Origin: Loxodes magnus
Taxonomy: Eukaryota > Ciliophora > Karyorelictea > Loxodida > Loxodidae
Direction: 5' to 3'
NCBI GenBank assembly: GCA_946699065.1
Contig: CAMPDV010000104.1
Location: forward strand, 620,001-684,000
Length of the DNA: 64,000 nt
The first letter of the stretch is position 1. Each line of letters begins with the position of its first letter. The position numbers were made by a program, and so were the translations under genes. Below, one piece after another: positions 3,333 to 55,140 of this stretch. The notes below the pieces were generated by a model that saw only the letters and a list, made by a program, of their open reading frames with translations, was not told the DNA's origin and ran no database searches.

Positions 3333-3339
3333 TATATTT

Positions 3340-15769: not shown

Positions 15770-15808
15770 CAAACTTAAAAATTTATTTTTTCTTGAATAA
15801 TATATATT

Positions 15809-21060: not shown

Positions 21061-21269
21061 AGAGCTATTAAGATTATTTTCTTACTTTGCTTAAATATTA
21101 ATACATATTAATAAATTATTATCTTAAGAAGTTTAAGCTCTTCTTTATTTTTGTTAATATATTAAAAGGAATATAAAGAAATTTTATTTTATATTAGTTT
21201 AAATAAAGTTTAATTCTAAAGATTTTATTATCTAAAGATTATTATTTATTCTAATTCTTAATTTTTAAA

Positions 21270-21935
21270 TTAAAGGTAACTTGGGGTATCCATATTATTA
21301 GCGTTTTCAATAACCGTTTTTATTTTTTTCCCTTCAATCCATTCTCCTTCTTGCATTTCTCCTTTTTTATTTACTTCTATACCTTTTCCATGCTATTTTC
21401 CATTATGTCACATTCCTTCGTATCTTCTTCCATCAGACCACTAAAAAACTCCAAATCCTTGTTTTCTATCGTCTACATAATCACCAGTGTAACATCTCCC
21501 ATCTGGCCAAGTAAAAACACCTCTACCATCCATTTTATTATTTTTTCATTCACCCACATATTTTCTTCCATCTCCCTAATGATAAATACCATTTCCGTGT
21601 ATGTTATTATCATAAAAATCTCCCTCATATGTACTTCCTTCTGCCCATGAAAATTTTCCCTTTCCATGCCTTTTTCCATATTCATAGCTACCTTCATATT
21701 TCGATCCGTCAGGCCATGTTTCTACTCCTTATGTATGCTATTTATCTTCTTTTCATTATCCTGTTTAAATAGCTTCATTTCCTAGCTATACAGGTCCGTT
21801 ATCAAGAACTTAAGCTCCATCTGATAAAATGTTTTCTAATTTAAAAGGATCATATTTTGCTTCAGTTTCTTTAACTTTATCATTAGGATAATCAGGGAAT
21901 AGTGATTCTATTTCTTTGAATTGCCCTAGTTCCAT
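21270..21935 (-). CDS. MORN-repeat protein, short paralogue (copy C)
   Basis: From ATG at 21935, about 221 codons with six to seven MORN units ([36 protein letters not shown] and others). MORN proteins act as membrane- or cytoskeleton-associated scaffolds. The repeats are close to those of the gene at 35937, but about three central units are missing. One repeat Trp is replaced by Gln (TAG in YHQGDG), and the C-terminal tail has diverged: where the relative ends DSL-TGA this copy reads DTPSYL then TAA. No in-frame TGA follows, so the end at 21270 (TAA) is provisional. It starts 66 bases downstream of the exonuclease gene on the same strand. It is either a gene with an unusual terminator or a decaying copy. 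Confidence 0.7.
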
Positions 21936-22001
21936 ATTAAGATATAAATTAAAAGGTAAAGAATATAATTAATAGAATAATTAAAGTTTAGAATAAATTT
22001 A

Positions 22002-23945
22002 TCAGACTTCCATGGTGATGAACTTCCAATAAAAATAACTTTTTCCAATCTCTTCAAATTTCATTTGGGTCATTAGATTAGCTATACTTTGCTTTATTTG
22101 GTTACTATTTAATTCTTACTATGCTTAGCTTACTTAATTCGAGAAGCATTAGTTCATCATTAAAGAGACTTATTAAAGATAATTCTAAGCTTATTAAATT
22201 GTTCGTAGCAAAGACATTTCAGAAATAGGGTTAATTTCTCACTTTTACGTTTAATTGACTAAGTCGAAAATAAAGACAATTCTAGCTATAATATTTGGAT
22301 TTTATAGCACTTCTAAGTCTTCAGTTACCATTGCATTAATTGGCAGTAAATAAACTGAAACTACAGAGTCCTTCTCACCTGCTGATTAGCTATAGCAAGG
22401 GTGCGAGTACATATATTACTTAAATTATTATAAATCTAAAGTCTTGTAAATCATTCCTAAAACAAGAGAACTGTAGAATAAATTCCTAGCGTAGATAGCA
22501 TCTGAGCTAGAGTATATTAACTATTCTTCACTCAGTCTTTAATTCCAGTCACTTAGTTATATAAGTTTATTTTTAGGAACGAAAATTCCATAGAAAAAAG
22601 CTAGTAAATTAACTAGACCTAGTTAACGATTTGCTTTAGTATGAATGAAGACTCCTTTTTAAGTTATGAACTCATAGTTATCTATTAAGCTTTTCATCTT
22701 CAATTAATGCTTTTCTAGTTCTTTTTAATCTTAGTTCACTCCAATGCCTACTTTGACAATTTTTTCACTCTCTAGGATAAATTTAATCTAATCTGGCAGC
22801 TATTTTTAAGTCTTATTTTAGTATAATAAGCAGCCTCATTATGTTGAAATTTAAAATAGAGAAACTGCTTATTATGTGTAATAAAAAGAAACTGCTACTT
22901 CACTATCAAATCCAACTACTTAAGGCCATATTCTAACTTTCTAAATTCAATTAGCTATTCAGTTATTGCATTATTAGGGGTCGTCAGTATAAAATATGTT
23001 ATATTTATTCTATCTAAAATCGCAGGTTTACACCTATTAGTACTAGATTCTTGAGTTAAATAGACTCTGCTATACAAGCTTGTCATCGTTGTGAACTTAA
23101 TGAATCATTTAGTGATAATTTAACTCTACTTAGTTGCTGTTTTCTAAAATTTGACTGCTATTTTTGGCATTTTCTGTTAGACTAATTTGTAACATTTAGG
23201 TTTCATTTAAAAAATTCATTTTTTCTTCCTCGATAGTTATCATATTTTAACTTTGCTATAGCTAACCTTACTCTAGAAAGACTTAATATCCTTAATCAAT
23301 TAAGTTATCTCAGTTTTTCTATTTAATTTCTTTATCTAAAATAAAAGTTTCTTAGAAAATACCGAAAAAATGCGCCAAATCAAATTTAAATTAACCTTTA
23401 AATCTATAAACTGAAGGAACAAGCTTAACTAATTGCTTTAAAGTCAGAACTTTCCTCTCAGTGGTTAATTCTTTCATTGCTTTAAGTACTTAATTAGCAA
23501 CTTTAATAATGAATTGAAAGATATTTAGCTAATCCTGTTTCTTAATCAAGTTATTTTGTGTTAAATATTCGTTTACTTTCTGTTTAGCAATCTCACTTTT
23601 ATTCAATGGACCTGATAAGATAAGAGTATCTCCTCTAGTTTATGCATAATGCTGGTATTAGTTGATTATTTAGAGTAATCCTTTTCATTATTAATCTGCA
23701 AGTTTTTAAACATTTTGGATGATAATCTCTTGAGTATTATTATTAAACTAGCTTAATTTCTTGACTATTTCCGCTTCTAGTTTTGGGTATAATTATCAGT
23801 TTTTCATTCTTTATATTCTTAGCATTTACTTTCTACTTTCATCTAATAGATAAGCATTATACCTCTTACATATATATATTAATTCATTTCTTTGCTCAAT
23901 CAGCAATGGAAATTTAACTTTAATGATTTCCTCTTTCTCATTCAT
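22002..23945 (-). CDS. 3'-5' exonuclease, DEDDy family (Egalitarian/EXD1/WRN-like)
   Basis: 647 codons in one frame, ATG at 23945 to TGA at 22002-22004. Removes nucleotides from 3' ends of RNA or DNA. The exonuclease domain carries all five catalytic residues: Asp and Glu in VGFDSE (about residue 343), Asp in VGIGVNQDQKEL (WRN has GIEGDQWKL), and Tyr/Asp in LIYSSSDAIYARNLFY. A hydrophobic FILESEKIVKVGI strand precedes motif II, as in the family. N-terminal to it, GDTLILSGPLNKSEIAKQKVNEYL resembles the end of a KH domain, which would give the RNA-binding plus exonuclease order of Egalitarian; that part is tentative. The C-terminus is Q-rich. Trp in the middle region is TGA. Whether it acts in mRNA decay, small-RNA trimming or repair cannot be told. 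Confidence 0.83.
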
Positions 23946-26265
23946 TTTTAATATTCATTCAAAAGCTGATTAAGTAAGAAAAGCTAATTTTTTAATCAGT
24001 AGTGATTATACTTAATTTACAATCAAAATTATGATTCCCACATTTTTATCTAGGAGTGATGCTTTTAAACTACAGTGCTAATAAACTTTCAAGCTGCTTA
24101 TAAAATACCAGCTTAGCTAGTTTTATTTCGGATTTATTCTAATATATTATTGAAGGCTATAGTAACTATTTACTTTAAGGATATAAAAGGTTATTTAGAT
24201 TTACGATAAAATAGATTTAGACTAGAGTTATAAATTTTTCACTAAGAAGCTTCATAGTCCATTTGCTTAATCGCATATAAGTATTCAAACTTTAAAAATA
24301 AAAAAGGATTATTATTTTATGAACTAAGTTAAGAGCAAATACTATATAAGAGCTCCTTTGTATTTACCTCTTTAATTATAAATAAGTAATGTATGAGCAA
24401 ACTGCTGCTGTCTAAGTACCTATATAATCATTGTACGCTTGAGAGTTAATAATATCAAAGCCTATCTAGTAATTGAAATATTTCTTTTATCTTATGAATA
24501 TAGTAGTGAAAATTGATTTTGACATGCTTCTAATTTTAGAGTTTAATTGAAATGTTCTTTTCCCTTTTGTATACATTTATTTTCTAAGTAGATAAGTAAA
24601 TAGAGGTAAAAGATATCTTAGATACCTTTTAGAAACCTTAATTATCTTAAATTAATACATTCATTTCCCTATAACCTTCTTTATTTAAGCAATTATTGAT
24701 ATTCATTAATTTAACAATCGGTTTATTTCTCTTTTCTATAAAATATTAAACCACTTAAGAACTTTGAATATAGATATCTATAAATATCTTAATATTAACT
24801 CTTTTAATAATTACACTTTTTCCTTATAGCTTCTGCTTAATCATCCTCTCTTATTTTATGAAAAGCATTTAGTATAACTTGCTGCCTTTAATTATTCTGT
24901 CTTGAGATCTTTATATTCAACTTATTTTATTATATTTATAAATACTTGCGTTAAACCTCTTCATAAGCCATACAGTTGTATGATAATGTAAAGCATAAAT
25001 GGAATTTTAAATAGTTGAATTACCATAAAGCTACAAATAGAGATACCTTAGCTTTGCTTATAATATATTTCATAGGTTAAAGTAAATGGATATATCTACA
25101 TAACTAGACAATATTTATAATTTCTCATATATAAGGTTACTCTTTATTTAGTAAGTATACATAATATCTCTACTAGTGCTATAATTAATAGCCAACATTT
25201 TAATTTTTTATATTGTTCCTTAAGTTAATTTTATTAAGAACAGAGTATCTATTTTAGTTTGCAAAGTAAGGAATAGAATTTAGACCTCTTAGTTAGATTC
25301 CTTATTGTATTTTAAATATAAGGAAAAGCTAATTTTAAATAAGCTTATGTATACTTGTAATTGCTACTATGCATATCTGATTCCTGCTATAATCAATCTA
25401 TAATTGGTTATGATCTAACTCAGTATTTACCCATTAGCAAATCTAACAAGTCTAGTAATAGTAACTTAGTATATTCATTTTATTGATAATCTAATAAAAT
25501 AAAATGATAAAAGCGCTGCTTGTAGATAAAAGTTATGGCAATGGAGATAATACTGAATTATTTACTTACATAATGACTATTTGCTAGGAAATTAATATTA
25601 GTAAGCCTTTTCTGAGTATCTAAACTGATACTTTGTTATACACTATTAAGTCTCCTATTAGTTTCTAGTTATTTAATTAAAAGCTAAGCGATTAATTAAG
25701 ATTACTAAGCAATTGCTTATTTCAGTCTTCACTCTCTATCTATATTACATCTTTCTAATCTCTTCTTAATACTCTTATTTACTTAGCTTTCTTCAGTATA
25801 CTAGCAATATAAATCAAAAGCTGCTATAATGATATCCATGAAACTAAAATATACGATTAAAGGAAGATTCGAATATTATAAAATAGGGTAATAGGTATCT
25901 ATGTATAATTGGGTTATTCTATTTATGCAGCTAATAAATACAATCATTTTATAAGGAATATTAGAATCTAGTGTACTGTATTACTTTATATCTAACCCTA
26001 TAATTCAGGAAAATCAATATAAGCATTAGTTAATAGTAAGCTGAGAATTCTTATTCCTGCTTAGTAGGAAGAATTATTACTAATGTAGACTGGAAGTAAA
26101 TATGTATATAGATAAGGATAGCTTAGAGTAGAATGAAATGAAAGCTTAATTTATAGTTTAATTATAAGTTAACGGTATAATGGCTTTAAGATTGGAGAGA
26201 TAGACTTTTATTTAAAAAATGATGATGTGAAGTTAATTGTTTTTATTTAAAAAGTTAACTTAAAA
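23946..26265. other. Stretch without a well supported gene
   Basis: The plus frame of the gene at 26266 stays open back to ATG at 25504, and even to 24031. From 25504 on, some G1-rich segments occur (ALLVDKSYGNGDNTELF), so that gene may start earlier. Between 24031 and 25500 codon-position bias is flat and I call nothing. Confidence 0.35.
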
Positions 26266-27929: not shown

Positions 27930-29252
27930 TCATTTTACATTTGATAGCATTGTAATTTTACCATTTTTGGAAATTGAAGAATGCTTAAAAGTAACTAATT
28001 TAGGATACTTCATTCTGTAATATTCTCCATCAAATTACATATACACTCATTGTCTTTGATTTTCAGGTGGAACCTTCAATTTAAAATAGTAAGGACCATT
28101 TCCTTAAGTGAGTCTTTTAGCATTTCCTGCTTTTAGCTATTCCATAATAAATCCAATAGGAGAAGTAAATGTAAGAATTTCAATATTTCCATCTCCCATA
28201 CTTTGCTTTCTAAATTTATCAGAAGAAATTTCTTCAGTTGTAGCCAACTTAGTAGACTTATCTCATATATTTCTTAATCCACCAGCATATGCATTTATGT
28301 TTAAGCAAAGAACTGTAATTGGTTAACCTTAAAATTTAGGTCCTTCTTCTTCAGAATCGCTTACTAATATTTCTTCGCTATTTTGATTTATAACTTGTAT
28401 TTTACTTATGAAGTGCTAAGCTCTTTGAGGCCTTTTAATAATAAGATTTCTAAATCCTTGTCAGCAATAGCAACATTTATTACAGCATTAACTATTTTGT
28501 CTGACCTTTTCAAAATTTAGACCAATTTTAGCATCAACACCGATTGAAAAATAATTGCTAATCATTCTGTTATAAATCAAAATTGGCTTCGCAGTTGAAG
28601 GCTCTAATAATATTTGTCTGGTTCAAGCTTTTCCCTGTTTTACAATTTTTTGGATTTATCCATTGTCTTCTAACTCAACACTTACATCTCATAAGTCTAC
28701 ATCTAGAGGAATTGCATTGATTCACTTTTCCACACTTTTTCTCAAGCCTTTAAAGTTTTTTCCTATTATAGGTTCTTCAGGTTTAATTCCCCATCCTAAA
28801 ACATTAGCCAAGTCATTACCTGATCCAAAAGGAGCAATAGCTAGAGCAATTTAAGATAAATTAATACCAAATTTCTAGATTTCTTCTACTACCCAAATAG
28901 TAGTGCCATCTCCACCTACTACAACTACTCTTGTGATTTAATTTTGATTTTAAGTTATTTACTTTAAAAAATCCAATCCTTTGTATCTAGATTCTTCATT
29001 CATCAAATCAAAAATATTAAGCTTTATTTGCATTTATAAGTTAGGATAATCAAAGTTAAGTTGCTCCTATCCCAAATTAATATATTCAGTTGCTTTAAGT
29101 CCTCCTGATTTAGGATTCACAAACATTACCATAATTTTTTCTTGCTCTTGCTTTGTCAAAATGTTATTAAAGTCTTTATCTAAGGATTCACTTTGTTTTT
29201 CCGAAAGTTCAATGGAGACTAATTTAGTATTTATTTGAGTTTACGTCTCCAT
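27930..29252 (-). CDS. Diacylglycerol kinase
   Basis: 440 codons, ATG at 29252 to TGA at 27930-27932. Phosphorylates diacylglycerol to phosphatidic acid. Catalytic domain: MVMFVNPKSGG (strand 1 with NPxSGG), VVVVGGDGTTIWVVEEI (glycine-rich GGDGT nucleotide loop, about residue 112), then LAIAPFGSGNDLANVLGWG, the conserved P-x-GTGND-type motif. The accessory domain follows: YFSIGVDAKIGLNFEKVRQN, LCLNINAYAGGLRNIW, and SMGDGNIEILTFTS with IGFIMEQLKAGNAKRLTQG. No C1, EF-hand or PH domain precedes the catalytic region, so it is a minimal enzyme. Odd: a Cys-rich insert, QCCNKCCYCWQ, between the two accessory parts. Several conserved Trp (WINAIP, LWDVSV, AWTRQ) are TGA. Substrate could also be another lipid such as sphingosine or ceramide, but the sequence is closest to DGKs. 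Confidence 0.93.
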
Positions 29253-30370
29253 TTTGTTAAATCTTAATTTAGAATTAAAAATAACTAAGTTAGGCTTTAT
29301 TAAACTACTTTTTAATATTCAGTATGATTTAATAAATCCTGAGATCACAATAATTCTTATCTCTTTTTTCATTTAAATCCTTCTATTTTTTATTTTCTAG
29401 TTAATCAAATCCATTTACTAAAGATAGACTTAAAGCCTTTCAAAATATTCTTCTCTTGAGATATAGTCCGTTTTGCTTCCTTTCTATATAAAATAAGGCA
29501 TAATTTTAGCATGGAATTAGCTTTACAAAATTAAATCAAGCCATTCTTATTGGATTTATATACTCAATATACAATATCATTAGTAAGCTTTTTAAAAAGC
29601 TCTGCTTAGCTTAGTAATTGGTATAGAGGAATATGCCTTTAAAGAATTCTCTATAATAGCATTATTATCACTATATTTTCATATAGTATTAGATATTTAC
29701 TACTAACTACTAATAACTAGAATCTATCAAAAGTAATGCAAATGCTTTATTATAACCTTTATTTATTTCTTAAGTATCAAACACAATATTTACTCCCATG
29801 GTCAATTAATTTTCATTGTAGTATAGTTTATAATAATAAAAGTCTAATTTACATAAATTGAAGCCTGTTTATTTGATAAAAGATAAGTGATAAGCATTTT
29901 TTATATTTTAACTATCCTAGAAACTTTATATATTTGAAATGCTTTAATAACAATCATTTTAAGATTATTATATGAGAAGTTAAAACTATCTCTTAAAAGC
30001 CAGAAATAGCTTAATCAAGTTTAATAAAAGTGCTCAGCATTGCTTTGATTATTATCTAGAATAAAAGTTTAAAAATGTTCTAGTGAAAGCATTAATTCCT
30101 ACTCTATTCTTTAGATAGAATATTTAAATTAGAATCTAACAATAAAAAAGCTTTAGCATGTTTTATGCTAATGATAGCTATTATTAGCTTTATTATTATC
30201 ATATACTTATTTAATTAAATTAGCTTTAATTAATTTGTTCATCCTATTTTTTTATAATATAAGCTATCTAAAAAGAGAGTTCTCAAAATCGTTAATTTCT
30301 AACCGTTTTAAACTCAAAACATCTGTATGCTAATGATGATTAAGTGTAGATTGAAGGTTATAATTAGATA
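29253..30370. other. Divergent intergenic region
   Basis: Separates the start of the diacylglycerol kinase from the start of the PAP2-like gene. Nothing recognised beyond AT-rich sequence. Confidence 0.4.
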
Positions 30371-32103: not shown

Positions 32104-35100
32104 TCAACTTTGGCCGTATTGACTTTCTAAACTTACGTCTTCAGGTAAAGGTCCACTGCTTTTGTAGCTTTACTATAAATTTTTTAAGCTTTCAGTTAAT
32201 TCATTCTCAAAGTCAAGTTTACTAGAAAGAAGCTGAATATTTTCATTGGCTATGTAATTTTAGATATCAGTGTTGTTGTCACTTTAACTCAAATATTATA
32301 GATAATTATCTGCTTTAAAGTTAAAATTGAACTGCTTTTATTCTGGGGCTTTATGCAATTTCGAGGCAAGATAATTATTTTTTTCAAACTCATTTACTTC
32401 ATAGTTTTAAAAATCTTTGTTAGGCTTTTATAGTCTTGGATTAGGAGAAGGATTTCTATAAGGAGATTAAGGAATATATTATTTAGAAGGAGTGCATCGA
32501 GAAGTTAAAAGCCTTGCATTATCTATTTAATTATGAGACTCCTTCACTCTTTCGAATCTTATCTTTTCTAAAGCTTTTTACCTCATATCTAACTCTTTCT
32601 TTAATTATTCCAATCTTTAAGCTTCTTAGATTATTATTGCTTTCTAATTTTATAGTTCAAATTGCTATTCTAAAATTTCCTTTTTTTCATAATCAATTCC
32701 TTCTTTTATTTTTCTTACAAATATTGACTCTTCCTTAACTTACATTGAAATTTGATGCATTTTGCTTGCTTCCTCCTCGTAAATTTTTTATTCTGCTGCC
32801 ATTTTTTCTTTTATCCTTGCTAGATCATCAATTTGCTGTCTAATGTAAATTTCTTAAGCCTCGACTTATTATCTTCGTTTTGGTAAAGAATTAAACTCTT
32901 CTTATAGCATAGTTCTTTCCTATTCTAGTTTCAAAAAACTTTATCTAATTTGTGATTATTGCTGCTCTATATATGATTTATAATCAGATTTTTCCTTTTC
33001 AAATAATTTTTTTTGTAGTTCCAAATCATGAACTTAGTCGTTATACTGATTTTGCCACATTTACTACTCTTATTTTATTTTTTAAGTTTCATGTTGTAAT
33101 TATAACGTATTCAAGCTAGTTTCTTCTTTTCTTCTTCTCTCTGCTTCTTTAAACTATAAAGCTAGCTCATCTATTTTATCATAGTCTACTTTTGTTTTAA
33201 ATTTTTCGTTATTTCACTCTTCTTATCTTTTTTATTCATTTTGCTCTATTTAGATAGTAAGTTCTTATAACTTGAGTCTTTCAGCAGAAAGTTTCTCCTA
33301 TTCAGCTTAAGTCTTTTTTTCTTGTTCTTACAGTTTTTGTTCTCTCAATTTTATTTCTTCCAATTATTTTGTTATATTTACATCTTATTTTTGCTGTAAC
33401 TTTTAACTAAGTTCTTAAATTTAAGAAGTGGAATTTTCTACTGTTACAGCTATATTGCTCATCATTTCTTATTGCTTAACTTGTAATTTCAAATTTTCAA
33501 TTTGCTCTTCGAAAATTAGCTTCTATCTCTAAAGATTAGCTTCAAACTACTTTTCTGTTGCTTTCATTTCCTGCTCCTGCATTTTTTATACTCTTTCTAA
33601 TTCAATTTTTCTACTTCTTTCAAGATCTTCTATTAGTCTTTGCTTTTCTTATTTAAGTAGGTCCATCTACTAACCATAAGAGTCTTAAAATCTTTTATTT
33701 TCGTCATTATTTCTTTGAATAAGTTTATCCATTGACTAATTATGCTGAGTTTCTAAGGTTTCCATTCTTTTTCTTGAATCTTGTAAATCTAGCTTAAGTT
33801 ATTCGTTAGTCTTTTCTGTTAGTTTTTTTTCTCCTTCTATATTTTGTATCTTGATTTGCTGCTCTCTTTCAACTGTATTAAGTTACGTTTTCAAAGTCAT
33901 AATCTCATTATTTAATTACTCAATTTTTTGTAGAAGTTATAGCTAGTAGTTATTTGCAGCCTATAAGTTCTATTAAGCTGCAGCTAGTTAAGACTAAAGA
34001 TCATTAAAACCAGGTTAAATATTTTGAGGCTAAGGAATTTATACGTTTGTTACAATGCTTTGAGGCATTTAAACATTTGGCTGAGTTTATTGTAGAGATT
34101 ATTATTGCTTCAACTAGAGTTCTTTTAACTTTCTAGGAGGCAAATTTTCCCCGAATTCCTTTTATTGTGACTACAAAAAGACTTGCTCAGGTGCTTGTTA
34201 ATTATAACTAGGAACAGAAATGTTAGCTCTTTGCTGCTATTGTATTAATTCTTAATTTTATTTTATTTGAAACAGGTTAACTTATTCACCTTGCTGCAGC
34301 TCTGAAAAGTCTACTTCCTATTTAATGGGAATTTTATTCTATTAAACTTCATTTTAAGACATTTCATTTTGTTTTTATGCTACCGGCTTGCTAAAGAAAA
34401 CTTATTGAGGTTAATAGTTAGAGCTGAAGCTATTTTCTTGAACTGGAGTGTATTGTTATTAAATAGAAGGTGTTGGACTTGCTCTATCTTTTAAAGTCCT
34501 TTATCTTCTACTCGTCCTTGCAACTTAGATAGTTGGTATTTCTTCTTCAGCACTTTCTCTACTTAAATAAGAATCTTCGCCAACATTTGTACTAGATTGA
34601 TATTTCAATTATTACTACTGCATGTTTTTCGTTCTTTATAAGGGGTTTTGTATGCCTTTATTATTATCTTAAAATCCTACTGTTTTCCTTTGCTGCTAAC
34701 TTTAATCTCTGACCTTCTAAACTTTATCGTAATCAATCTAACTAGTTTATGGACGAGAAGAATTTTGCTTACTATAAAGTGATCCTGTTTAAGAGTATTC
34801 AGAATCTTCTTCACTTACATCTCCTACCATTGCTGATCTGTAAGATTTTTATTAAGCTTAATTTTACTATGCTGATGAAGGACGCAGGTTAAATAAATCA
34901 GCTTTTCGCTTTTACTATCCTTCAGTTTCTCTAAAATTCTCTTGAGTTTTATGATGTACAATTTGCTGCTGTCTTTAACCGATTGTAGTCTCAATATTTG
35001 ATAGCAAATGTTCAACATCACCTGAATCTTCTATGTCATTTTCCATTATAGCTCCAGACGCTCTTTATAAGCCTTAATACTGACTTCTTTGATTTCTAGA

Positions 35101-35202
35101 AGTGTTTCTACTTGTTTCTTTATTGTAGTCCCATTCCGAAGTTTAATTTTTAGCTCTGGTTTGATCTGATAATCCTGGAAATAGATATTCGTCTTCGTAC
35201 AT
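32104..35202 (-). CDS. Long coiled-coil protein, unknown
   Basis: 1032 codons from ATG at 35202 to the first of two adjacent TGA codons (32106-32104, then 32103-32101). The first 380 residues are acidic/Q-rich and probably unstructured (MYEDEYLFPGLSDQ start, many SxS and Q runs). Residues about 400-900 form an almost unbroken heptad-type coiled coil rich in E, K, Q and L. The C-terminal 130 residues have PSPNPRL and LSSKLDFENELTESL segments. Likely a structural or centrosomal/ciliary scaffold, by analogy only. Only one in-frame sense TGA is obvious (EEWNNEKF), which fits a Trp-poor coiled coil. Part of it (33024-33601) has been copied to 37598-38174. Confidence 0.8.
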
Positions 35203-35936
35203 TTAAATGTAATAGAATTAATTTAATCCCTTATATTTAAAGACTATTTTCTTATTAATCTAAACTCATTTCAGCTTCATAAGCTTAATACATTTATTCA
35301 ATTCTCTCTATATACTAGTACCCTTCCAATTAGTATTTTCCTTTATTTTCTAAAAGATACCAAGATATTAGTTCTATATTACATCAGGACATCAAAGTTA
35401 ATAATAGCACACTTTTTATAATAGAACTCAAAGAAGACAGAAGTATATCAATTAAAAGAATGGTTGCAACTTAAGTGAAATATGCATAAATCCAATGGAG
35501 ACTTAGATACTAATATCTAGTAACTAACTATGAGGAAATATAAAAGGAAGCATTTATAAATTGGTATTTAGACTTTACTGTAACTTATTATATTGACAAT
35601 ATTATCTACAAGTTAAGCTAAACACTTATATAGTCAGAGCTAATCTTAAATCTAAGTAACTAATAGGTAAAAACAAGCAATACCAAATAAATATGGGGTT
35701 TACTTAATATGTATTAAGAAACCATTAAGAAACCATTAAGAAATTAAACTAATATCAGATGGATATAAAGTTAAAGTATACAACTTTCCTTAATAATATT
35801 TATAAAGCTAATATAATATTAAAGTACTCAGTTATATACCATTAATAATCAGTGTCAGTATCTAATCACATCGTAACTGTATTGTTTATCACCTTTTATC
35901 AAATTCTTATTTTTATCTTTACATCTTTTATTTAAT
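35203..35936. other. Divergent intergenic region
   Basis: Upstream of the coiled-coil gene (minus) and the MORN gene (plus). A short tandem of an AGAAACCATTA unit lies at about 35717-35745. Confidence 0.45.
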
Positions 35937-36803
35937 ATGGAACTCACACAAATCAAAGAGTTAGAAGGACCAGTCCCTGACTATATTAATGTTTATGCTA
36001 AACAAACTGAAGCGAAAATAGGTCCTTATTAATACGAAGAAAATATTCCAGATGGTGTTTAAGTTATCAATAAAGGACCTGAAGAGCGAGATAATGGAGC
36101 TATTTATACAGGATAATGATCACTTGATGGACTGCGACATGGCTAAGGAGTTTAAATATGAAAAGATGGCTCTAAATACGAGGGATATTGAAAAAATGAC
36201 AAAGCAAATGGAAAGGGAAGACTTATTCATGCAGATGGTGATGTCTATGAAGGAGAGTGATAAGATGATAAAACTAATGGTTAAGGAACTTACTTGAGTT
36301 TTGATGGAGCTAAATATTTAGGATAATGAAAAGAAGATAAATAGCATGGATAAGGAGTATAAACATGATCTGACGGAGCGAAATACGAAGGAAATTATGA
36401 AAATGGAAAAAAACACGGAAAGGGAAAATTTTCATGGGCAGAAGGAAGTACATATGAGGGAGATTTTTATGATAATAGCATACACGGAAATGGTATTTAT
36501 CATTGGGGAGATGGAAGAAAATATGTGGGTGAATGAAAAAATAATGAAAAGCATGGTAGAGGTGTTTTTACTTGACCAGACGGCAGATGTTACACTGGTG
36601 ATTATGTAGACGATAAAAAACAAGGATTTGGAATCTTTTAGTGGCTTGATGGAAGAAGATACGAAGGAATGTGACATAATGGAAAATAGCATGGAAAAGG
36701 TGTATATGTAAATTAAAAAGGAGAAATGAATGAAGGAGAATGGAGTGAAGGAAGACGCATAAAACGGGTAAATGAAAGCGATCGTATAAAGGATTCCTTA
36801 TGA
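35937..36803 (+). CDS. MORN-repeat protein, full-length (copy B)
   Basis: 288 codons, ATG at 35937 to TGA at 36801-36803. About nine consecutive MORN units of 22-23 residues fill residues 55-275 ([48 protein letters not shown] and so on). A 50-residue N-terminal lead and a short basic tail flank them. MORN proteins bind lipids or cytoskeleton and act as scaffolds. The conserved Trp of the unit is encoded by TGA in many repeats and by TGG in others, and Gln by TAA/TAG, so this gene alone fixes the code. It has two relatives in the window: the truncated inverted copy at 3000-3332 and the shorter gene at 21270-21935. Confidence 0.95.
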
Positions 36804-37584
36804 TTAACTTTTACTTCAACTATAAGGATTAGTTTTTATTATAAAAAAATATTCTTAAAAATCTATCTTTATTAAAGAGACATTCTATCTGAAAGGATAT
36901 TCCGATCATAATTAAAAGACATAAAAATTAACTAAAATTAACTAATAAATTTAACAATAAATATAGGAACGAATTAATCTCAATCTTCAAGCTACACACT
37001 TATTCTTATACTTTTCAATATTATCTACATTTATGTCATTATCCTATGAAAAGCTATTGCTTTCAATTAAAAAAATCTATATATTATCTATTATGAAATG
37101 AGAATTTCTATGTATTATGGGAACTGAAATACTAAAAAATAAGCATGTCAAATCAATTAAAAGCTTTTAATATGAGCAAACATTTAATAACTATAAAAAG
37201 AGCAAACATAAGTTGAAGTTTAATAAAACAATCAATACATTTTAACTGAAGTTTTACCTTTAGATTCGTCTAACGGTAAATATTTACTATTTTAGATTTA
37301 AATACTTAAAGCGATTTCAATGAAAAGGAATATATAAAGTTGAATGATTAATAAAATTACTAAGCATTTAGCTTATCAGTAAAGTTAAGATTATGAGAGA
37401 GTGATAGAAGAAAGACTAACTTGAATGAAAAACCTAAACTAGCTTTAAATTTACAAATAACAATTTTCTATCATTTTAATAGATCTCTCTATCAAATTAT
37501 ACAAACATCTTTTTATATTTTCAATAATTCTCATCCTCAAACTCCAAATTAGGTAACTCAAATTAAATTCCTAAAAAGAAAAAG
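36468..37584. repeat. Inverted segmental duplication, copy B
   Basis: Reverse-complement match to 2216-3332. It takes in the last third of the MORN gene and about 780 bases downstream, ending 13 bases before the copied coiled-coil segment. Confidence 0.9.
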
Positions 37585-37597
37585 GATCTATATAGTT

Positions 37598-38174
37598 AAT
37601 CATGAACTTAGTCGTTATACTGATTTTGCCACATTTACTACTCTTATTTTAGTTTTAAGTTTCATGTTGTAATTATAACGTATTCAAGCTAGTTTCTTCT
37701 TTTCTTCTTCTCTCTGCTTCTTTAAACTATAAAGCTAGCTCATCTATTTTATCATAGTCTACTTTTGTTTTAAATTTTTCGTTATTTCACTCTTCTTATC
37801 TTTTTTATTCATTTTGCTCTATTTAGATAGTAAGTTCTTATAACTTGAGTCTTTCAGCAGAAAGTTTCTCCTATTCAGCTTAAGTCTTTTTTTCTTGTTC
37901 TTACAGTTTTTGTTCTCTCAATTTTATTTCTTCCAATTATTTTGTTATATTTACATCTTATTTTTGCTGTAACTTTTAACTAAGTTCTTAAATTTAAGAA
38001 GTGGAATTTTCTACTGTTACAGCTATATTGCTCATCATTTCTTATTGCTTAACTTGTAATTTCAAATTTTCAATTTGTTCTTCGAAAATTAGCTTCTATC
38101 TCTAAAGATTAGCTTCAAACTACTTTTCTGTTGCTTTCATTTCCTGCTCCTGCATTTTTTATACTCTTTCTAAT
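37598..38174 (-). pseudogene. Copy of an internal piece of the coiled-coil gene
   Basis: Nearly identical (about 98 percent by eye) to 33024-33601, same orientation, but net one base shorter, which breaks the reading frame. It has no start or end of its own. Weaker similarity continues to about 38190. A recent local duplication. Confidence 0.88.
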
Positions 38175-38190
38175 CCAACCTTTCTACCTC

Positions 38191-39704
38191 CAAAATTATT
38201 TTAAATTTATGTACATGACTCAGTTAGTTTATCTTAAGTTTTTTTAATTTTGAATGCAGTTTTTCTTTAAACTAAAATTACAATAAATGAGTAAGGCATT
38301 TTAAGATTTATTTTATTAGTGTAACTATTTGAATCAATAAGACAGTGAAAACTCTAATTATTAGATTTATTATTTATATTGAATTATTTTACTTTGCAAG
38401 CTTACAACTTGTCAGAACTCTTCAATAAAAGTATTAACTATCTATTACTTCAAGCATTTAGTTACTTAAACTTTCTTCTTACTCTTATTCCTTATATATC
38501 AGATGAAATTGATACTTCTCATATTTCATATTTTTGCTATCCACTTATCCATTTCTTAGCTTCATATCTATTTATTTTAGAAGCTTTAAACCAAATTAAT
38601 TTATTAAAAATTTGACTGATTTTAGTTAATTTTAATTACCATGATACTTTTAATCTAGTAAAGCATTTATAAGATATACTACTTTAAATGAAACAATCAT
38701 TATACTTTCTCTATTTGCTAAGGGATATATCGCTTGCTTTAATATATCTATTAAACTTTTATTTATAAGATAGCTAATTATTTGAAAGTTAACTAGCTCT
38801 AAATTAATAGGTTTAGAAATAGGAATTTTATGATTACAAATAAACATAAAGAAAGATAAAATTAACTAGAAATATATAGTTTCTTAAGAAGGAATTAAGT
38901 TATATCTATCTCTAAAGGAGGAAAACTATCTAGCTAAGAGTTCACTGATTGAAATTAAATAAAATTATTTATAGAAATTATAAATTAACCTTACCCAATA
39001 AAGAAAGAGGAACTCTAGAAGATCTACTCTTAAAATCAAGCATAAAAAAAGTAAAAAGAAATGCTTTAAAGTTTCTTCACAAGGTAAATAAATTAAATCT
39101 TCTTTCTTTAATTAAAAGCAATGCAAACATTTTATCTGCTAGACTAAGCTAATAAAGATAATTAAATAGAAAAGGAAAAATTAGACAAATGCTATATTTT
39201 GAATATAATAGAATTTAAATATTAGGTAGTTTATTAATCTATTTTGCTTAAAATAGAAGGAAATGAGATGGGATTTTAAATAAACTAATAATTGTAATAT
39301 GAACAATAATTCTTTTTAAATATAGGCTAAAACTAAAATTAGTCTAATTAAAATAAAATTATCTACTAAAATAAAATTGAGGGATACAATAAGATTAAAT
39401 AAAAGAAGCTTTATTTATCTTTTATCTAACTGATTATTAATAAAAGTCAGATATAAATTTAAATAATAATTAAGATAATTAATTGATAAACTAAGAAATT
39501 TATTTTTTATAAATGAAGCGTTAATAACTCAGCCAAAATTTAATTTTTACTACATAGCTTACTAGAAGTTAATAAGTAGAATTTAGATTTAGATTTGAAG
39601 GAATTATAAAATATGAAATTAAATGAATATTATGATAAAAATTAAACTTTTATTGGTATCAGGTGAGAAACTATATTTAAAGATGTATTTTAAATAAATT
39701 ATAA
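38191..39704. other. Intergenic region
   Basis: No gene supported. Small open frames at 38379 and 38949 show no motif or codon bias. Confidence 0.4.
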
Positions 39705-41990
39705 ATGGAAATTAACATTGAATAGTAGTTTATTTTATCAGCTTAGGATTTAGAAAAATTTGAGGAAATAGATAGTGGAAGCTTTGGAATTGTTTATAGA
39801 GGAAAGTGAAAAGGAATATTGGATGTTGCTCTAAAAGAATTGTTCATTAATAAATCTACAGATAAAGATTTTTTGTAAGAGTTACAGATGCTAAAAAGTT
39901 TGAATCATACAAATGTTCTAAAATTTTACGGATATTGTCCTTCTCCGATGAGTTTAGTCACGGAGTTAATGGAGAAATCACTTTACACTTTTTTGAAAAA
40001 AAATAAAGAGATTCCATGAATAACAAGATATAAAATAAGTTTAAATATAGCTGAAGGACTTGATTATATACATTAATAAAATATCATTCATAGAGATTTG
40101 AAAAGTCTTAATATTCTTATGAATTAATACCATGCTAAAATATCTGATTTTGGATTAGCGAAAATGAAAACAGAATCTAAATCATTAAATACAAATTCAA
40201 GAGTAGGAACAATACGCTGAATGGCTCCAGAATTGCTTAATAAAAAACCTTAATATAGCAAGCAATCAGATATATATGCATTAGGAGTTATTTTTTGGGA
40301 AATAGCAACAAAATAAATTCCTTTTAAAGATGTAGACGAATAAGTTATAATAAAAGATGTTTAATCTGGATTTAGAGAAGAAATACCATTAAATTGTAAT
40401 AAAATTTATTCTTAACTAATAAGTGGATGCTGAACATAAGATCCAAATAAAAGGTTAGACTTAAAAACAGTAATTCAATAGTTAAAGGATATTAATTAAT
40501 CTGATTGATTATTTTAAAATCCGGAAAATAATAAAAAAAAATTTTTAAACAGGGAAGTATAATCTTTTAGATCTGAAGAAAACAATAAAAAAATACTTTC
40601 ATTTGAAGAAAATTAACAATTGAATACATATGTTCAATAAGTTCCTAAAATTGAATATGGAATTTATGGCTTTGATAATTTAAGCATTTGATCTTTGGAA
40701 ACTTTTCTTAATGATTTAAAGGAGCAAGACATAGATGCTTAGTAAATATTTTAGATGCCTATTGCTAGATCAGGTTTAATTAATAAAACAGATATTCTTT
40801 TATAGTTAAGTGGAATATAAGACAAAATAATAGAATAAAAGTTAATGGAAGTAGTTGAGTTATCTAAGTCTAGTAACGTGATAGAAAAAGCAGCTGCAAA
40901 TGCCATAACTATATTAAATTATATGAACTATAGATTTATGAATAAGGATTTAAGAGGAATTTAAATAAGTGTAGCAGATTTAAGTGACTCATACTTTGAA
41001 TCATGCAACTTTTCCAGAGCAAATTTATAAGAAGTCAACTTAAGAAATGCAAAATTCATAGATTGTAATTTCTTCAATGCCAATTTTTCTAAAATATCAT
41101 GAAAATTTTAGCATAAATTGAAAGGGCACTAGGATTCCGTATAATCCATAGCAATTTCAAAAAATAATAAGTGATTAATATCAGGAAGTCGAGATTTTAA
41201 GATAATAATTTGGGACTTGATGACTAGTAAAAAAAAGTGTGAATTAAATAGTCATACATCTTTTGTAGAAACTGTAGCAATTTCAAGTGATGATAATTGA
41301 ATCGTATCAGGAAGTGCAGATAAAACAATAAAGATATGAGACATGATAACTGGTAGACTAAAAAATACACTTACTGGACATAAAGATTCTGTAAGATCTT
41401 TAGTAATATCAAGTGACAATAAATAAATTATATCAGGAAGTAAGGATAAAACAATAAAAATATGAGATATGACAACTGGCTAGTTAAAAAATAGCTTGAG
41501 CGATCTCACAGACCGTGTATGGTCTTTAGCTATATCTTGAGACAATACGTGATTAGCATCAGGAAGTGATAGTGCAAAAATAAATATATGAGATTTAATT
41601 ACCGGATAGTTAAAAATAACACTGACTGACCATACTAACTCAATAGAAACTATGTCCATCTCAAGAGATAATAAGTTATTAGTATCAGGAAGTGGTGATA
41701 ATACGATAAAGTTATGGGATACGACAAAATGGGAACTAAAAGGCACAGTGAACAGTCATGCACATGCTGTGAGTTCTGTAGAAATTTCAAGTGACAATAG
41801 ATGAATAATATCAGGAAGTAGAGATTAAACAATTAAGATATATGATTTAAAAACTGGATAATGTATGGTTACATTGAAAGGACACAATGATTCAGTACAT
41901 ACTGTGAAAATAACATCAAATAACAAGTACTTATTATCAGGAGGATAATAAGGTGAAATAAGAAGATGGAATATGTAGAGATTATTATGA
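39705..41990 (+). CDS. TKL-type protein kinase with pentapeptide and WD40 repeats
   Basis: 761 codons, ATG to TGA at 41988-41990. Kinase domain (about 15-285): GSFGIVYRGKW loop, VALK with Lys44, HRDLKSLNIL at 129-138, DFGLAK at 148-153, then GTIRWMAPELL, which is typical of tyrosine-kinase-like (TKL) kinases. All catalytic residues are present. A linker of about 150 residues leads to an armadillo-like AAANAITILNYM helix and pentapeptide repeats (about 420-465: ADLSDSYFESCNFSRANLQEVNLRNAKF). Seven WD40 repeats follow (about 475-757), one complete propeller, with IKIWD blade ends mostly using TGA for Trp. The pentapeptide-WD40 part is homologous to that of the STAND protein at 50528-55093. Probably a signalling kinase whose propeller recruits substrates or senses a ligand; the substrate is unknown. 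Confidence 0.93.
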
Positions 41991-43259
41991 TTAAAAAAAA
42001 ATACTCATTAATGATAGGTAAGTAATTTTAATCAAAAAAGATATAGATAAACTGGGATAAAATTTATTAAGAATATGGTTTAAAATTTGAAAAATGCAAT
42101 TCAAATTGCATTATTATGAATGAGAATGACGAGATGAAACTATTTAAAAAAAAAGAGTGATAAAGCATTAAAGATTTTTAAAAGAGGTTATATTATTTAA
42201 AATATAATAGTTAATATAAAAAATAAAATAACGATGATTTTTAAATTAATAAAAGCAAAATAATAATATTATATATTATCAATATTATTATAAATAAAAA
42301 TAAGAATATTTATAAAAAATAGTAATAAACTTATGAAAAGTCATAATACTAATAATTAATATTCTTATCAATAATAAAAATTATGTTATATATAAATAAT
42401 AATATTCATAATAACTAAATTTATATCTAAAAAATATAAAATTTTTAAGTACAATAATAAATATTCTTTAATCAAGACAATACAAATAACATCAAAATAA
42501 AAAAACACTTAAATTAATGTAATATTAATATTAATAAATATTAAAATAATAAATCAATAATATAAATAATATTAATAGAATCGCTCATTTTTAATAATAA
42601 TGCAACTATTTATAAAAATATAAAAATTAAAGATTGCAATAATATTTTTATATTAATTATATAATTTATTATTAATAATAGCAATATTAATACTATAAAT
42701 AATTAAAACATTTTATATTATGATTAATATTAATATTAAAATATAATAATAAATTATAAAAATAAAATAGCTATTATTATTATTATTGCTATTTTTTTAT
42801 TTTTTGTGCCTTTCCCTTTATTAAATTTTTCACTGCTAGATTTTTATAAAATATCAAATATCAAATTTTTATTTCCTTGCATTACATTTAATTTACTTTT
42901 GCCATTGTAATTTTATCTTAAATAATTATATTATTTTCTCTTTAACTAATCTTAAAATCCTGCTTAGAAATATTCCTTATCCAACCTAGCATTATAACTA
43001 AAATAATTTTCTAAATTTATTTTGCAATTTAACTACAAAGTTTCTTATAAGACAATTGTAAGTTTTCAAGTGGGTTCCAATTACTCTAGCAAAAATTCTA
43101 GTAGTGATCACTTGGTGATGTCAAGAATTAAGAAATTAAGACTTACTCTTAAATATCATTGTTTCCAGTACCTGAAGTCTTCTATCTGCTAAAGTTGACA
43201 AAGAAAAAAAATTTCTTACTTAAAAGCCATAAAAAAAAGCAATTCAATAAAAGAAAAAA
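41991..43259. other. Intergenic region with extreme AT stretch
   Basis: After the kinase gene the sequence becomes almost pure A and T (about 42200-42790). At 42860-43200 a minus-strand frame reads plausibly but lacks codon bias, so it is not called. Confidence 0.45.
42200..42790. repeat. AT low-complexity tract
   Basis: About 590 bases of interspersed AAT, ATT and TAA motifs with hardly any G or C, ending in an ATT trinucleotide run. Confidence 0.75.
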
Positions 43260-49880: not shown

Positions 49881-50527
49881 ATTATAATATGTAATAATAA
49901 AAAATTTACAACTTTAAAAATTTAATTTAGCACTTCTTATATTTTTGAACTTTTATCATTTTCTAATATCCTCATTCTTAAAATTAATTATTTTTATTTC
50001 TTTTTATCATTTTTTGTTTAAATCAGTTAATATATTCTCTTTCATTACATTTATCTCTTTCTTTTTGTGATTCTATACAATTGTTCTTTTCTTACTATTA
50101 TTATTCTCTAATTCTTTCTCTTCTCTCTTTCTAATTTAATTTATAAACACTTTTGTGGTATATTGAAATATAAGTTATAGTCTTCTTTCAATCTTTCACT
50201 TTTGATTCCCTTTAACTTTAATTTTATATTCCATTCAAATATAATCCTTTAATTTTAATTTTTTGTTTTATTTACTTCGAAGCTTTTTTATTTAATTAAA
50301 CCTCTAACTTTTTAAGTATTATAAGCTTAACTTTTTTTTGTTTATTTTAATTATATTATTATTATTGTTAAATTTTAAATCTAACTCTAATTATACATTT
50401 TACACATTTAGTTAGCGATTTCTTTTTGATTTTATTCTGTCGACTCTAAATGTATTTTTATTAAATTTAATTTTGAAATGCTTATATTAATTTACTAAGT
50501 ACAAATGCAGCAAATTTAATTCAGTTA
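49881..50527. other. Convergent intergenic region
   Basis: T-rich, no gene seen; 3' flanks of two convergent genes. Confidence 0.4.
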
Positions 50528-53500
50528 TCAATTTAATGAAAGATATTTGTCTATTATAAGCTTTTTATTTTTTTCCTCAGTTATTTCAGCTTCGTCAAAA
50601 GAGCATTTGTGTATTATCAATCCATTTCTTCCTATTATTCTTTTTAAACTTTCTTTAAATGGCTTATTATTTGTATCCATCTCTCAGATTTTTATAGTTT
50701 TGTCCCAACTTCCTGATACTATATGCTAATTATCGTTAGTAAGTGCTATTGAATAAACTAAACTAGTATGGCCTTCCAATGTTTTTATGTTTTTTCCTGT
50801 TTCAAATTCTCAGATTTTTATAGTTTTATCCCAACTTCCTGAAACTATATACTAATTATCTTTAGTTATCGCTACTGAATAAACAGTTCAAGAATGACTT
50901 GCCAATGTTTTGATAATGTTTCCTGTTTCTCTTTCTCAGATTTTAATAGTTTTATCCAAACTTCCTGATACTATGTAATTATTATCTTTTGTTATTGCTA
51001 ATGATCTAACAGAACCATAATGACCTTGCAGTGTCTTTATAATATTTCCTGTTTCTCTTTCTCATATTTTAATAGTTTTATCATAACTTCCTGATATTAT
51101 ATTCTAATTATCAAAAGTTATTAGCAAAGATAAAACAGAATCGGTATGATCATCCAGTGTTTTTATATTAATTCCAGTTTCTCTTTCTCAGATTTTTATA
51201 GTTTTATCACTACTTCCTGATATTATATATTTATTATCTTCAGTTATGACTACTGAATTAACAGAATCCGTATGACCATCCAGTGTCTTTATATTAATTC
51301 CTGTCTCTCTTTCTCAGATTTTTATAGTTTTATCACTACTTCCTGATATTATATATTTATTATCTGCGGATAATACTACTGATAAAACGTTATTAGCATG
51401 ACCTTCCAATGTCTTAATATTATGTCCTGTCTCCAACTCTCAGATTTTGATTGTTCTATCTTTACTTCCCGATACTATTTACTTTGAATCAGAAGTTATC
51501 GCTAGCGAATAAATAAAACTTGTATGCCCTTTCACTGTCCAAAAATCATTTCCTTCCTCTATTTCTCAGATTTTTATAATTTTGTCCCAACTTCCAGATA
51601 CAATATATTTACTATCTTTTGTTATCGCTAATGAATAAATATAATCGTTATGACCTTTCAATGTCTTAATAATGTTTCATGACTCTGTCTCTCAGATTTT
51701 TATTGTCTAATAACTTCCTGAAATTAAATATTTATTATTATCAGTTATCCCTACAGAGTATACAGTTTCAGTATGACCTTCTAATGTCTTAATGATATTT
51801 CCTGTCTCTAATTCTCAGATTTTAATAGTATTATCCATACTTCCTGATATTATTCATTCGTTATTCTTATTTACCTTTACTGATAAAACAGTTTGAGTAT
51901 GATCTTTTAATGTATTAATCAGATTTCATGTTTCAATTTCCCATATTTTTATAGCATAATCAGCACTTCCCGATATTATTTTTTTATTATCCTCAGTGAT
52001 TGCAACTGTTCTAATAGGTTCAGTATGGCCTTCCAATGTTTTAATATTATTTCATGTCTAAAACTCTCAGATTTTTATTGTTTTATCACAACTACCTGAT
52101 ACTATATATTTATAATCTGAGGTAATTGCTACTGATGTAATAGGGCCTTTATGACCTTCCAATGTTTTAATATTTATTCCTAACTTTAAATCTCAGATTT
52201 TTATAGTTTTATCTAAACTTCCCGATATTATATAATTATTGTCCTTAGCTGTTATCACTGATGTAACATCACTCGAATGACCTTTCAATGTCTTAATATT
52301 ATCTCATGTCTCCATTTCTCAAATTTTTATGCTTTCATCAGCACTTCCTGAAATTATGTACTTATTATTAGTAGTTATCGCAACTGATCAAACATAATTA
52401 GTATGGCCTGCTAATGTTGGCATTTAATCGAAGATAACTTAATTCATGTTTGCCTAATTAAAATTGCATTTTCTTAACCATGCTCTACTCAAATTTACTT
52501 TTGCTAAATTCGCTTTACTCAGATCACATCTATCAAATATAGCATCACTCAAATTTGCCCCAGATATTTATATTCCCTTAAGACTCTGCTAAATAAATTA
52601 ATAATCCATATATTTCAGTATAGTTATGCAATTAGCTCCCGCTTGCTATAAATTCCTATTTTAACTTGTTGCTTTCACTATCTTCAATAAATTGTTTTAC
52701 ATTTCCTTTGAATTCTTACTTTCTTTTATAAATTATTATATAACCTAATTATCAATTATAGGAATGATATTTATATAATGATTCTCTAAACTGGCTAATT
52801 TACTTTCTAGATTTAATGCTAGTTCTAATATATCCTGTGCCACGACAAAATCTCTTATTGAAGGATGCTAAAATTCAAAAAATTTTTATTAATTTTGCTC
52901 TTTAATTTAAATCAAGCTTCCTAAGTTTTATTAGCTTTAGTAAAATAATCTTTTTTATTCCTCATTATTTTTCAAAATTTCTTCTACATTTACATCTCCT
53001 TTTTATGATTACCATGATACTTTTTTTAATATTTCATCATATTTCTTTAGTTACTCTGTTATTTGTTCAGGTTCTTTACTTGATGTTCATAATTTTTATT
53101 CGGTTCTTTTTTTCCATTTATTGGTTAAAATCCCATAAATTTCAGACCTTTCTATTTTCTAGTTAATTCCATTTTTTAATCACTCAAATATTTCTTTTTC
53201 GCTCATACAAATATTCAGCGAAAGCGGACTTTTCAAAATTTCCATTAATCCGTTAGCCCCTTAAATAATGGTTTTAATTTCTTTTAATTTTTAAACCTCA
53301 TCAATTTTAGTTTGACTTTAATCTTAAAGTTATTTCCCAATAAACAACCTTAAATACTAATCTATTTAACTTTCATCAAAAGGCTTTATATATAACTCTT
53401 CTAGCTCTTAAGTTTGCATCTATTCACTTCTATTGGGAGAAAATAAATTTTTATAATCTGGAAATGATAAAGCATATTTAATTCTGCAAGTGATTATATA

Positions 53501-55093
53501 TTTTGCATAAGGGTATCTAAGGTTTATTTAATTAGTATGTATTATAGAATTATACTATCCTAACTCATCATATGCATCAAATAAAAACAATATTTTTCTA
53601 AACATCAATTTTTCATTTCATTCTATTTAATAGTTCTTTAAGGAATTTTATACTAATTTATCTTCAAATTCTTTAATTCTTGGAAGATATACATATATAG
53701 GTAAATATTCATTCTTTTTCTCTAGAAAATCTAATGCTAATTTTTTCATAAATAAAGTTTTTCCGGAACCAGAGTCTCCAAGAATTAATAATCCTAATTT
53801 ATTTTCATTTTTCAAAAAATTTTGAACTTTCTCCTCTAAATCTTATTAATCTTAGGAATCAAGATTAGGAGTACATAGTAGCTTAACATAGCATTCTGTC
53901 TTACCTTATATTTCCACTTTTAAATATCTTATCATATTTGAATAGATTTGTCTATCTATACCCTTAAGCGCCAGTCAATTCTCTTTCATTGTTTAAGTAA
54001 ATTTAGTAACATGGTCTGGATGTATTAATAACTCTACGATTATTTAATGTTCCTTAGCATTTTCTTACAAATCCTTCTCTTTTTATTAAAATACTCTTTC
54101 CTTATAACTAGTAACTTTTTGATTATTTTCTAGGCTTAGTTCCAATAACGTTTTCAAAGCATAGTATCTAATTTACCATTTTTTATCCTTGCATAATGAT
54201 TCTAAAAGTTTGCAAGAGTCTTCTTTTAAATCTTCGCTAGAATTTTTATTTTTTATCATAAGTTTTAGAAGAAAGCAAGCTCTGAATCTAATATCTTTTT
54301 TTTCATTCAATACAATACTTTGAAATTATTCAAAATTTGCTTTGGATTTAGTGCTAGTCAAGTCACATGCTAGCATATCTAAAGTTCTTAGCCTAACAAT
54401 TATTTCCTTATCGTATTTTTTCCTTATCCATTCACTTCCTCAAGCAAAAAAGTCCTTTATAATGGTAATTGCCTCTGTATCAATAGCTCCAACTCCAAAT
54501 TACAAAGTAGCTACTCATTTGGCGATATTTAAAAGCTTGCAAAATACTTTAAAATATTCTATTTCTTGGTTATCTGGAATATGTTTCAGGATCATCAAGC
54601 TATACCTTAGAGCAAATTCTAGTTCCGGACCTCCAATTCTATTTATGATTACTTATCTTAAACTATTTTCAAGCTAATCCTTAAGTTTCATTTTTGTAAT
54701 TCCATCTATAAAGGAATTATTCTCGTTTTTTTTAAGCAAAATATCCAATAACTCAGGAAGGCTTTGCACAAGCTACTCTTTCAGGAGTTAAGATCAACCT
54801 TTAGAGTATTAATGAGAGACAATTTCAATAAATTGAATAATAAGTACCAGTGGGTCTTCTACATTACTAAGCTTAATTTTTTAAATTGTTTTAATTCCCT
54901 GCCAAATATATTCCTTATTTTATTGATTTAGGCCATCTTTTAATTACTACAATCCATCTTAATAATTCTTTTATTCCTCTATTTCTTATTAACTTGGCTC
55001 TGGTTATTTTTGAAATTAAGTTATATTTGGATTCGATTTATTTTTTGGTGCTACAGTATTTTTTTATTTGGCAGCTGTGCAACCTCCACCCTT
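50528..55093 (-). CDS. STAND NTPase: HEAT-NACHT-pentapeptide-WD40 protein
   Basis: About 1521 codons in one frame, closed by TGA at 50528-50530. N-terminal helical HEAT/armadillo-like region to about 380. The NACHT-type NTPase has Walker A LGDSGSGKT (about 437) and Walker B ILFLFDAYDELG (about 505), then CRIKYAL sensor-like and LKSPLSLN (the NACHT winged-helix proline) motifs. Pentapeptide repeats lie at about 840-890 (GANLSDAIFDRCDLSKANLAKVNLSRAWL). Fourteen WD40 repeats fit two propellers. Blades end IKIWE with Trp as TGA, about twenty sense TGAs in all. STAND proteins are ligand-triggered switches used in immunity, cell death and signalling. The start is odd: residues read GGGCTAAKQ, a perfect lipid-anchor N-terminus if preceded by Met, but the codon before is AAG (55093-55091), and no in-frame ATG lies just upstream. 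I start the feature at that codon. Confidence 0.92.
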
Positions 55094-55140
55094 CAGTTAT
55101 ATACATTTATAAAAATTTAGTTTTTATAATAAATTGATTT

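Follow-up and report, generated by a model that had tools for sequence, protein, structure and literature searches.

The DNA analyzed here, a 64-kb window (contig C104, positions 620001-684000), almost certainly comes from the macronucleus of Loxodes magnus, a karyorelict ciliate, and follows the karyorelict code already in print, NCBI table 27. By sequence, glutamine is the best fit for TAA and TAG, TGA is tryptophan inside genes, and TGA is the last codon at all four gene ends that can be placed (MORN1, RRP4, and two eRF1 genes). A sequence-only reading of the window had claimed that all three stop codons are sense codons and that TGA also terminates, and this is where Pfam scores under swapped codes, masked alignments, and the genome's own genes for tRNAs and eRF1 point. 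The karyorelict code (TAA/TAG = Gln; TGA = Trp or stop) had been named correctly as well; it is stated for L. magnus in the accessible part of the genome paper (PMC11441545). A table 27-type code in Loxodes and its relatives is already in print and not new, and the same is true of a tRNA-Trp with a 4-bp anticodon stem in Loxodes.

Few known codes are as odd as one in which every codon has a sense meaning and one of them is also the stop, and standard annotation fails on it. Of use may be the set of parts found together in this genome, which comprises both kinds of UAR-reading tRNA, two kinds of tRNA-Trp with a short stem and one with a full stem, and an eRF1 that writes its own catalytic glutamine as a stop codon. 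With these parts in a single species, the competition between tRNA and release factor becomes testable there. According to the accessible text of the genome paper, the L. magnus macronuclear assembly has 706 Mbp and the code is NCBI table 27; UGA is the sole stop, is also Trp if far enough 5' of the poly-A tail, and is depleted, together with UAA, over ~20 codons ahead of the stop (PMC11441545). Termination is described as governed by how near the codon lies to the end of the transcript or the poly-A tail (excerpts of PMC4967479 and PMC11441545).

Tryptophan columns and TGA

The standard code was rejected for the window: stop-to-stop runs reach at most 161 codons when TAA, TAG, and TGA all count as stops, and 768 codons when TGA alone does. 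A codon-usage segmenter run on the 64-kb window placed 22 coding stretches (27,753 bases); since MORN1 and long TGA-free runs were its seed, the codon counts that it yields cannot serve as independent evidence. Pfam was searched with padded translations of every one of the 22 stretches and of five additional pieces. Nine of the 22 stretches gave a match (three MORN genes, RRP4, phosphodiesterase, WRN-type exonuclease, diacylglycerol kinase, kinase-WD40, and the long WD40 gene), and no Pfam match was obtained for the other 13 or for the five further pieces. These nine genes, one long frame, and two eRF1 genes from elsewhere in the genome are as follows:

35937-36803, forward strand: MORN1, MORN-repeat gene (ATG at 35937, terminal TGA 36801-36803)
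3009-3452, reverse strand: MORN2, the 3' part of a duplicated MORN1, together with 3' flank
21246-21938, reverse strand: MORN3, third MORN paralogue
9162-9923, reverse strand: exosome subunit RRP4 with terminal TGA 9164-9162 (start codon uncertain)
13820-15796, forward strand: cyclic nucleotide phosphodiesterase (PDEase_I at 14597-15283; start uncertain; terminal TGA 15767-15769 or 15794-15796)
22653-24050, reverse strand: gene with a WRN-type 3'-5' exonuclease domain and many TAA/TAG
27930-29483, reverse strand: diacylglycerol kinase (DAGK_cat and DAGK_acc), start uncertain (candidate terminal TGA 27932-27930)
39693-42236, forward strand: gene with protein kinase and WD40 parts, TGA in blades of the WD40 part and at three Trp columns of the kinase (end positions provisional)
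49931-55354, reverse strand: WD40 gene, N-terminal half P-loop-like by eye, 13 of 14 matched blade Trp written TGA (end positions provisional)
32107-35349, reverse strand: long frame, coiled-coil-like by eye and rich in TAA/TAG, coding signal ending at a double TGA (no Pfam match)
Contig C196, L070:1456-2766: eRF1 paralogue, 437 codons including the stop
Contig C196, L071:1456-2766: second eRF1 paralogue, 437 codons including the stop

The limits that had been given for the MORN gene are exact, and the internal TGA, TAA, and TAG codons described for it are present: ahead of the last of its 289 codons, MORN1 has 9 TGA, 11 TAA, and 3 TAG in frame (table 27), and it ends in frame at the terminal TGA. 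With TGA read as Trp, the Pfam MORN score was 179.5 bits (gathering threshold, 22.5), the highest of all values tried, compared to 119.8 with TGA masked. Phe (171.2), Tyr (154.8), Leu (147.9), Ser (137.5), and Cys (123.7) came next, followed by Arg (111.3), Gln (107.9), and Gly (99.4).

TGA had also been read as Trp in RRP4, the phosphodiesterase, the diacylglycerol kinase, and the WD40 blades of two genes. For RRP4 this was borne out: with TGA masked, the Trp position of its KIWIY motif aligns with Trp of the RRP4 chains 6h25_H and 5jea_H. The phosphodiesterase gave the same answer, in that PDEase_I scored best with TGA as Trp (269.6, versus 255.6 for Cys, 254.6 masked, 254.0 for Arg, and 253.0 for Gly) and, in the masked alignment with PDE4B, two of the four aligned TGA face Trp, the remaining two facing Arg and Leu. 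Support from the diacylglycerol kinase is weak, as far as its sequence goes. Its DAGK_acc domain favored Trp by 3.4 bits (108.5, with Gln at 105.1 and the others at 102.0 to 104.4), but DAGK_cat did not discriminate and was flat over the TGA values (63.8 to 64.1, with Trp lowest, 0.3 bit under the highest); the masked protein gave no match in a PDB search. In the masked kinase, three of the four TGA face Trp in CTR1, the second-ranked match, and against the first-ranked match, 9p9u_A, the four TGA face two Trp, one Glu, and one gap.

For the WD40 blades, we used a regular expression for the blade end (SG[SG]...IKIx[EDN], with x scored) and counted only matching blades. At the blade Trp position, the 20 matched blades of the two WD40 genes have 16 TGA, 3 TGG, and 1 TAT, as had been claimed, against a background of 120 TGA among 9,251 codons (1.3%) across the predicted coding stretches. 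A PDB search with the masked WD40 region at 1e-60 was without match.

In a masked tally, all three codons were masked and one solved homologue each was used for five proteins: RRP4, the kinase (CTR1), the phosphodiesterase, the WRN-like protein, and eRF1. Alternative alignments were left out, as was a last short RRP4 block that holds none of the three codons. Trp stood opposite TGA in 6 of 12 columns, and W had the best BLOSUM62 sum. By protein, TGA faced Trp in 1/1 (RRP4), 3/4 (kinase), 2/4 (phosphodiesterase), and 0/3 columns (WRN-like protein, a weak alignment in which the residues were Phe, Asp, and Ser); eRF1 has no TGA. By comparison, TGG faced Trp in five of nine columns.

Glutamine codons and the tRNA genes

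In the same tally, Gln was opposite TAA in 12 of 52 columns and opposite TAG in 4 of 19. Gln had the best BLOSUM62 sum in both cases, for TAG narrowly (10, over Ser with 7). The control codons did no better (CAA opposite Gln in 2/13, with Lys as best sum; CAG in 0/5), and therefore Gln is poorly conserved in the tallied proteins and the test is a weak one. The Pfam scores are clearer. With TAA/TAG as Gln, PDEase_I scored 269.6 (256.9 to 263.3 for Glu, Lys, Tyr, Ser, and Leu), eRF1_2 scored 147.3 (132.3 to 142.8 for the same five), and eRF1_3 scored 105.8 (96.9 to 103.8). In eRF1_1, Lys (54.0) was slightly above Gln (52.9), and with TAG alone swapped, Glu (53.6) and Lys (53.2) were slightly above Gln (52.9). 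The glutamine assignment of the sequence-only reading thus gave the best score in PDEase_I and in two of three eRF1 domains, and tRNAs with UUA and CUA anticodons are present in the genome; for TAG taken alone, the sequences point weakly to Gln.

These tRNA genes were found by pattern searches covering the whole assembly (7843 contigs, 705,730,643 bases). The tRNA(UUA) pattern, for a Gln-like tRNA, matched 178 places, with a TTA anticodon in all matches listed; of two matches that were inspected, one (L039) proved to be a sound tRNA and the other (L051) was not classed as a tRNA. The tRNA(CUA) pattern matched 78 places, compared to 1 in the reversed control, and both examples checked are tRNAs. 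A first tRNA(UUA/CUA) pattern had given no match and looser ones succeeded; a CUA pattern with a TTAG D-arm was rejected, with 2 places versus 8 in the reversed control. From the code, we infer that these tRNAs are charged with Gln, and UAA and UAG would then be decoded by the tRNAs with UUA and CUA anticodons, respectively.

For tRNA-Trp(CCA), the pattern matched 643 places at up to two mismatches, and the reversed control gave 0. First tRNA-Trp patterns with an AGAG D-stem gave no match because the actual genes have AGCGC there. Among the matches listed are two types of tandem array, one on contig C148 with a period of 241 and a U.C at the top of the anticodon stem, the other on contig C67 with a period of about 187 and an A.C at that place. 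The two are identical elsewhere in the tRNA, and by cmscan the top anticodon-stem pair is the only non-standard pair in both, which leaves a 4-bp stem. Two single tRNA-Trp(CCA) genes on contig C110 (L072 and L073) keep all five stem pairs; L073 has one non-standard pair outside the anticodon stem. A 4-bp-stem tRNA-Trp in Loxodes is credited to Swart et al. (excerpts of PMC13092985 and PMC12005148), and the word tRNA is absent from the main text of PMC11441545 on the L. magnus genome.

The simplest decoder of TGA would be a dedicated tRNA-Trp(UCA). Our pattern for it, built on the D-arm seen in the CCA genes, matched 0 places in the 705.7-Mb assembly, and the accessible text of PMC13092985 reports none identifiable in Amoebophrya, Blastocrithidia, and Condylostoma; that such a tRNA reads TGA in place of the 4-bp-stem tRNA-Trp(CCA) is improbable, with a slim chance at best. 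The UGA-reading tRNA-Trp whose search had been suggested did not turn up in UCA form with the pattern tried, but short-stem CCA genes did, and the likely UGA reader is a tRNA-Trp(CCA) whose anticodon stem is shortened. In this mechanism, loss of the top pair (4 bp, not 5) would make a C:A wobble tolerable, so that tRNA-Trp(CCA) could decode UGA.

Other tRNA genes were seen along the way. A tRNA-Met and a tRNA-Trp lie about 700 bases apart (L072:710-782 and L072:1485-1557) and have near-identical acceptor, D, and T arms, differing mainly in the anticodon arm. An Rfam tRNA search, in which 63 of 42786 candidates were scored, pointed to numerous tRNA copies with equally high scores, some scattered and some in tandem, on contigs C64, C78, C103, C158, and others; the three of these that were checked are all tRNA-Lys(TTT).

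Gene ends and release factor eRF1

That genes end at TGA had been claimed too, and it holds for the four ends that can be placed, those of MORN1, RRP4, and the two eRF1 genes, with MORN3 as an exception. The coding signal of RRP4 stops at TGA 9164-9162, and its last internal TGA is 75 codons upstream of the stop; in MORN1, 43 codons separate the last internal from the terminal TGA. Both eRF1 genes have their terminal TGA after the acidic tail, have no internal TGA, and write all four Trp as TGG. A second in-frame TGA is the third codon after the stop in both copies. The spacing in these four genes only (last internal TGA 43 and 75 codons from the stop, and two genes without internal TGA) is consistent with the published TGA-poor zone of ~20 codons. 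Toward the 3' end of an mRNA, with few in-frame UGA and a nearby poly-A tail, eRF1 would outcompete the tRNA and UGA would terminate, a step that we take from published work.

TAA and TAG are at none of the four placed ends, and MORN3 is one candidate for a TAA end. Downstream of its coding signal, 175 codons follow without an in-frame TGA and with several TAA, one Trp codon is changed to TAG, and the 3' end is unlike that of MORN1; MORN3 is possibly a UAA-ended gene, a gene with a hidden intron, or a pseudogene. Its 3' course would suit a code like that of Condylostoma magnum (NCBI table 28), in which the three codons are all sense and all three also terminate, and the sense assignments of such a code would be identical to those found here. 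Furthermore, a 2022 karyorelict abstract (Seah et al.) reportedly admits a few UAA stops, a small minority, in karyorelicts. However, TGA is at all four placed ends (MORN1, RRP4, and two eRF1), and MORN3 may be a pseudogene or intron-bearing because of the Trp-to-TAG change and the 3' end unlike that of MORN1. UGA is also given as the only stop of L. magnus in the accessible genome paper text (PMC11441545), and a code of the Condylostoma type is therefore very improbable for the window.

Compared to table 27 as it applies to Loxodes and Parduczia, we have no established difference: TAA/TAG = Gln and TGA = Trp or stop are the same, with only TGA at the four placed ends and the MORN3 end as the exception. 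The Condylostoma code likewise makes all 64 codons sense and terminates according to context but, unlike table 27, uses the other two codons as stops, too (excerpts of PMC4967479). In the code of Blastocrithidia, all three stops are also sense and UGA is read as Trp via a 4-bp-stem tRNA-Trp(CCA), but UAA/UAG are Glu and the stop is UAA (excerpts of PMC12153298).

The two eRF1 copies hold 20 and 21 TAA/TAG, among them the TAA that encodes the catalytic Gln185 of the GGQ motif in both. L070 aligns over its residues 5-432 with an eRF1 chain 436 long, at residues 4-431 of that chain. L069, the best eRF1_1 match, was Pelota/Dom34-like by eye and was set aside. These genes bear on a reading in which the in-frame codons are genuine stops in pseudogenes and the code is standard or only partly reassigned. 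Decayed-looking duplicates do exist, e.g., MORN2, where 315 bases hold 6 substitutions at first, 11 at second, and 7 at third codon positions; but TGA falls on conserved Trp columns, two release factor genes carry their TAA/TAG load with the catalytic Gln in it, and tRNA genes with the matching anticodons exist. We give the pseudogene reading practically no credence and retain the karyorelict code.

In the numbering of 1dt9_A, which we take to be human eRF1, Loxodes eRF1 keeps GTS and NIKS and has Ala55, Arg58, Gln60 (TAA), Ala70, and Phe125. Thus, four of the five stop-recognition motifs are altered (E55A, TASNIKS to RAQNIKS [T58R], S70A, and Y125F), the five being GTS, Glu55, TASNIKS, Ser70, and YxCxxxF (excerpts of PMC12153298). 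Human Ser70 is changed both in Blastocrithidia (Gly) and in Loxodes (Ala), and the Blastocrithidia Ser70Gly change is linked to UGA readthrough (same excerpts). The eRF1 gene of Parduczia has an in-frame UGA (PMC4967479, in part), unlike both Loxodes genes. Since the same partial source reports contradictions to eRF1 changes tracking particular ciliate codes, we make no causal claim on these changes (PMC4967479). A literature search on Loxodes and eRF1 did not have the L. magnus genome paper among its matches. It is imaginable, though we consider it doubtful, that the UGA balance of Loxodes is set by tRNA gene dosage together with a retuned eRF1, that the 5-bp tRNA-Trp are UGG readers, and that occasional genes (MORN3) are UAA-ended.

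Duplicated sequences

MORN2 belongs to a duplication with 94.7% identity that spans 733 bases or more (37200 was the end of the query), 2601-3334 on the reverse strand versus 36468-37200 on the forward strand. The duplicated segment is the 3' part of MORN1 plus its flank, and the coding part is more diverged than the flank and has no codon-position bias. The comparison of MORN1 with MORN2 as evidence of constraint was dropped because MORN2 is without such a bias. Among the paralogues of the window, which are relaxed duplicates, 27 codon differences touch TAA, TAG, or TGA; nine of them are silent under table 27 (three TGA/TGG, three TAA/TAG, and three CAA or CAG versus TAA or TAG), and the non-silent ones include AAA/TAA six times and GAA/TAA three times.

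MORN1 is flanked by the long open frame at 32107-35349 and by a diverged partial copy of it at 37607-38587, both on the reverse strand. Elsewhere in the assembly, contigs C161, C288, C668, C1056, and others have MORN matches that are 138 bases, or multiples thereof, apart, some of the units with TGA; this spacing suggests long tandem MORN arrays.
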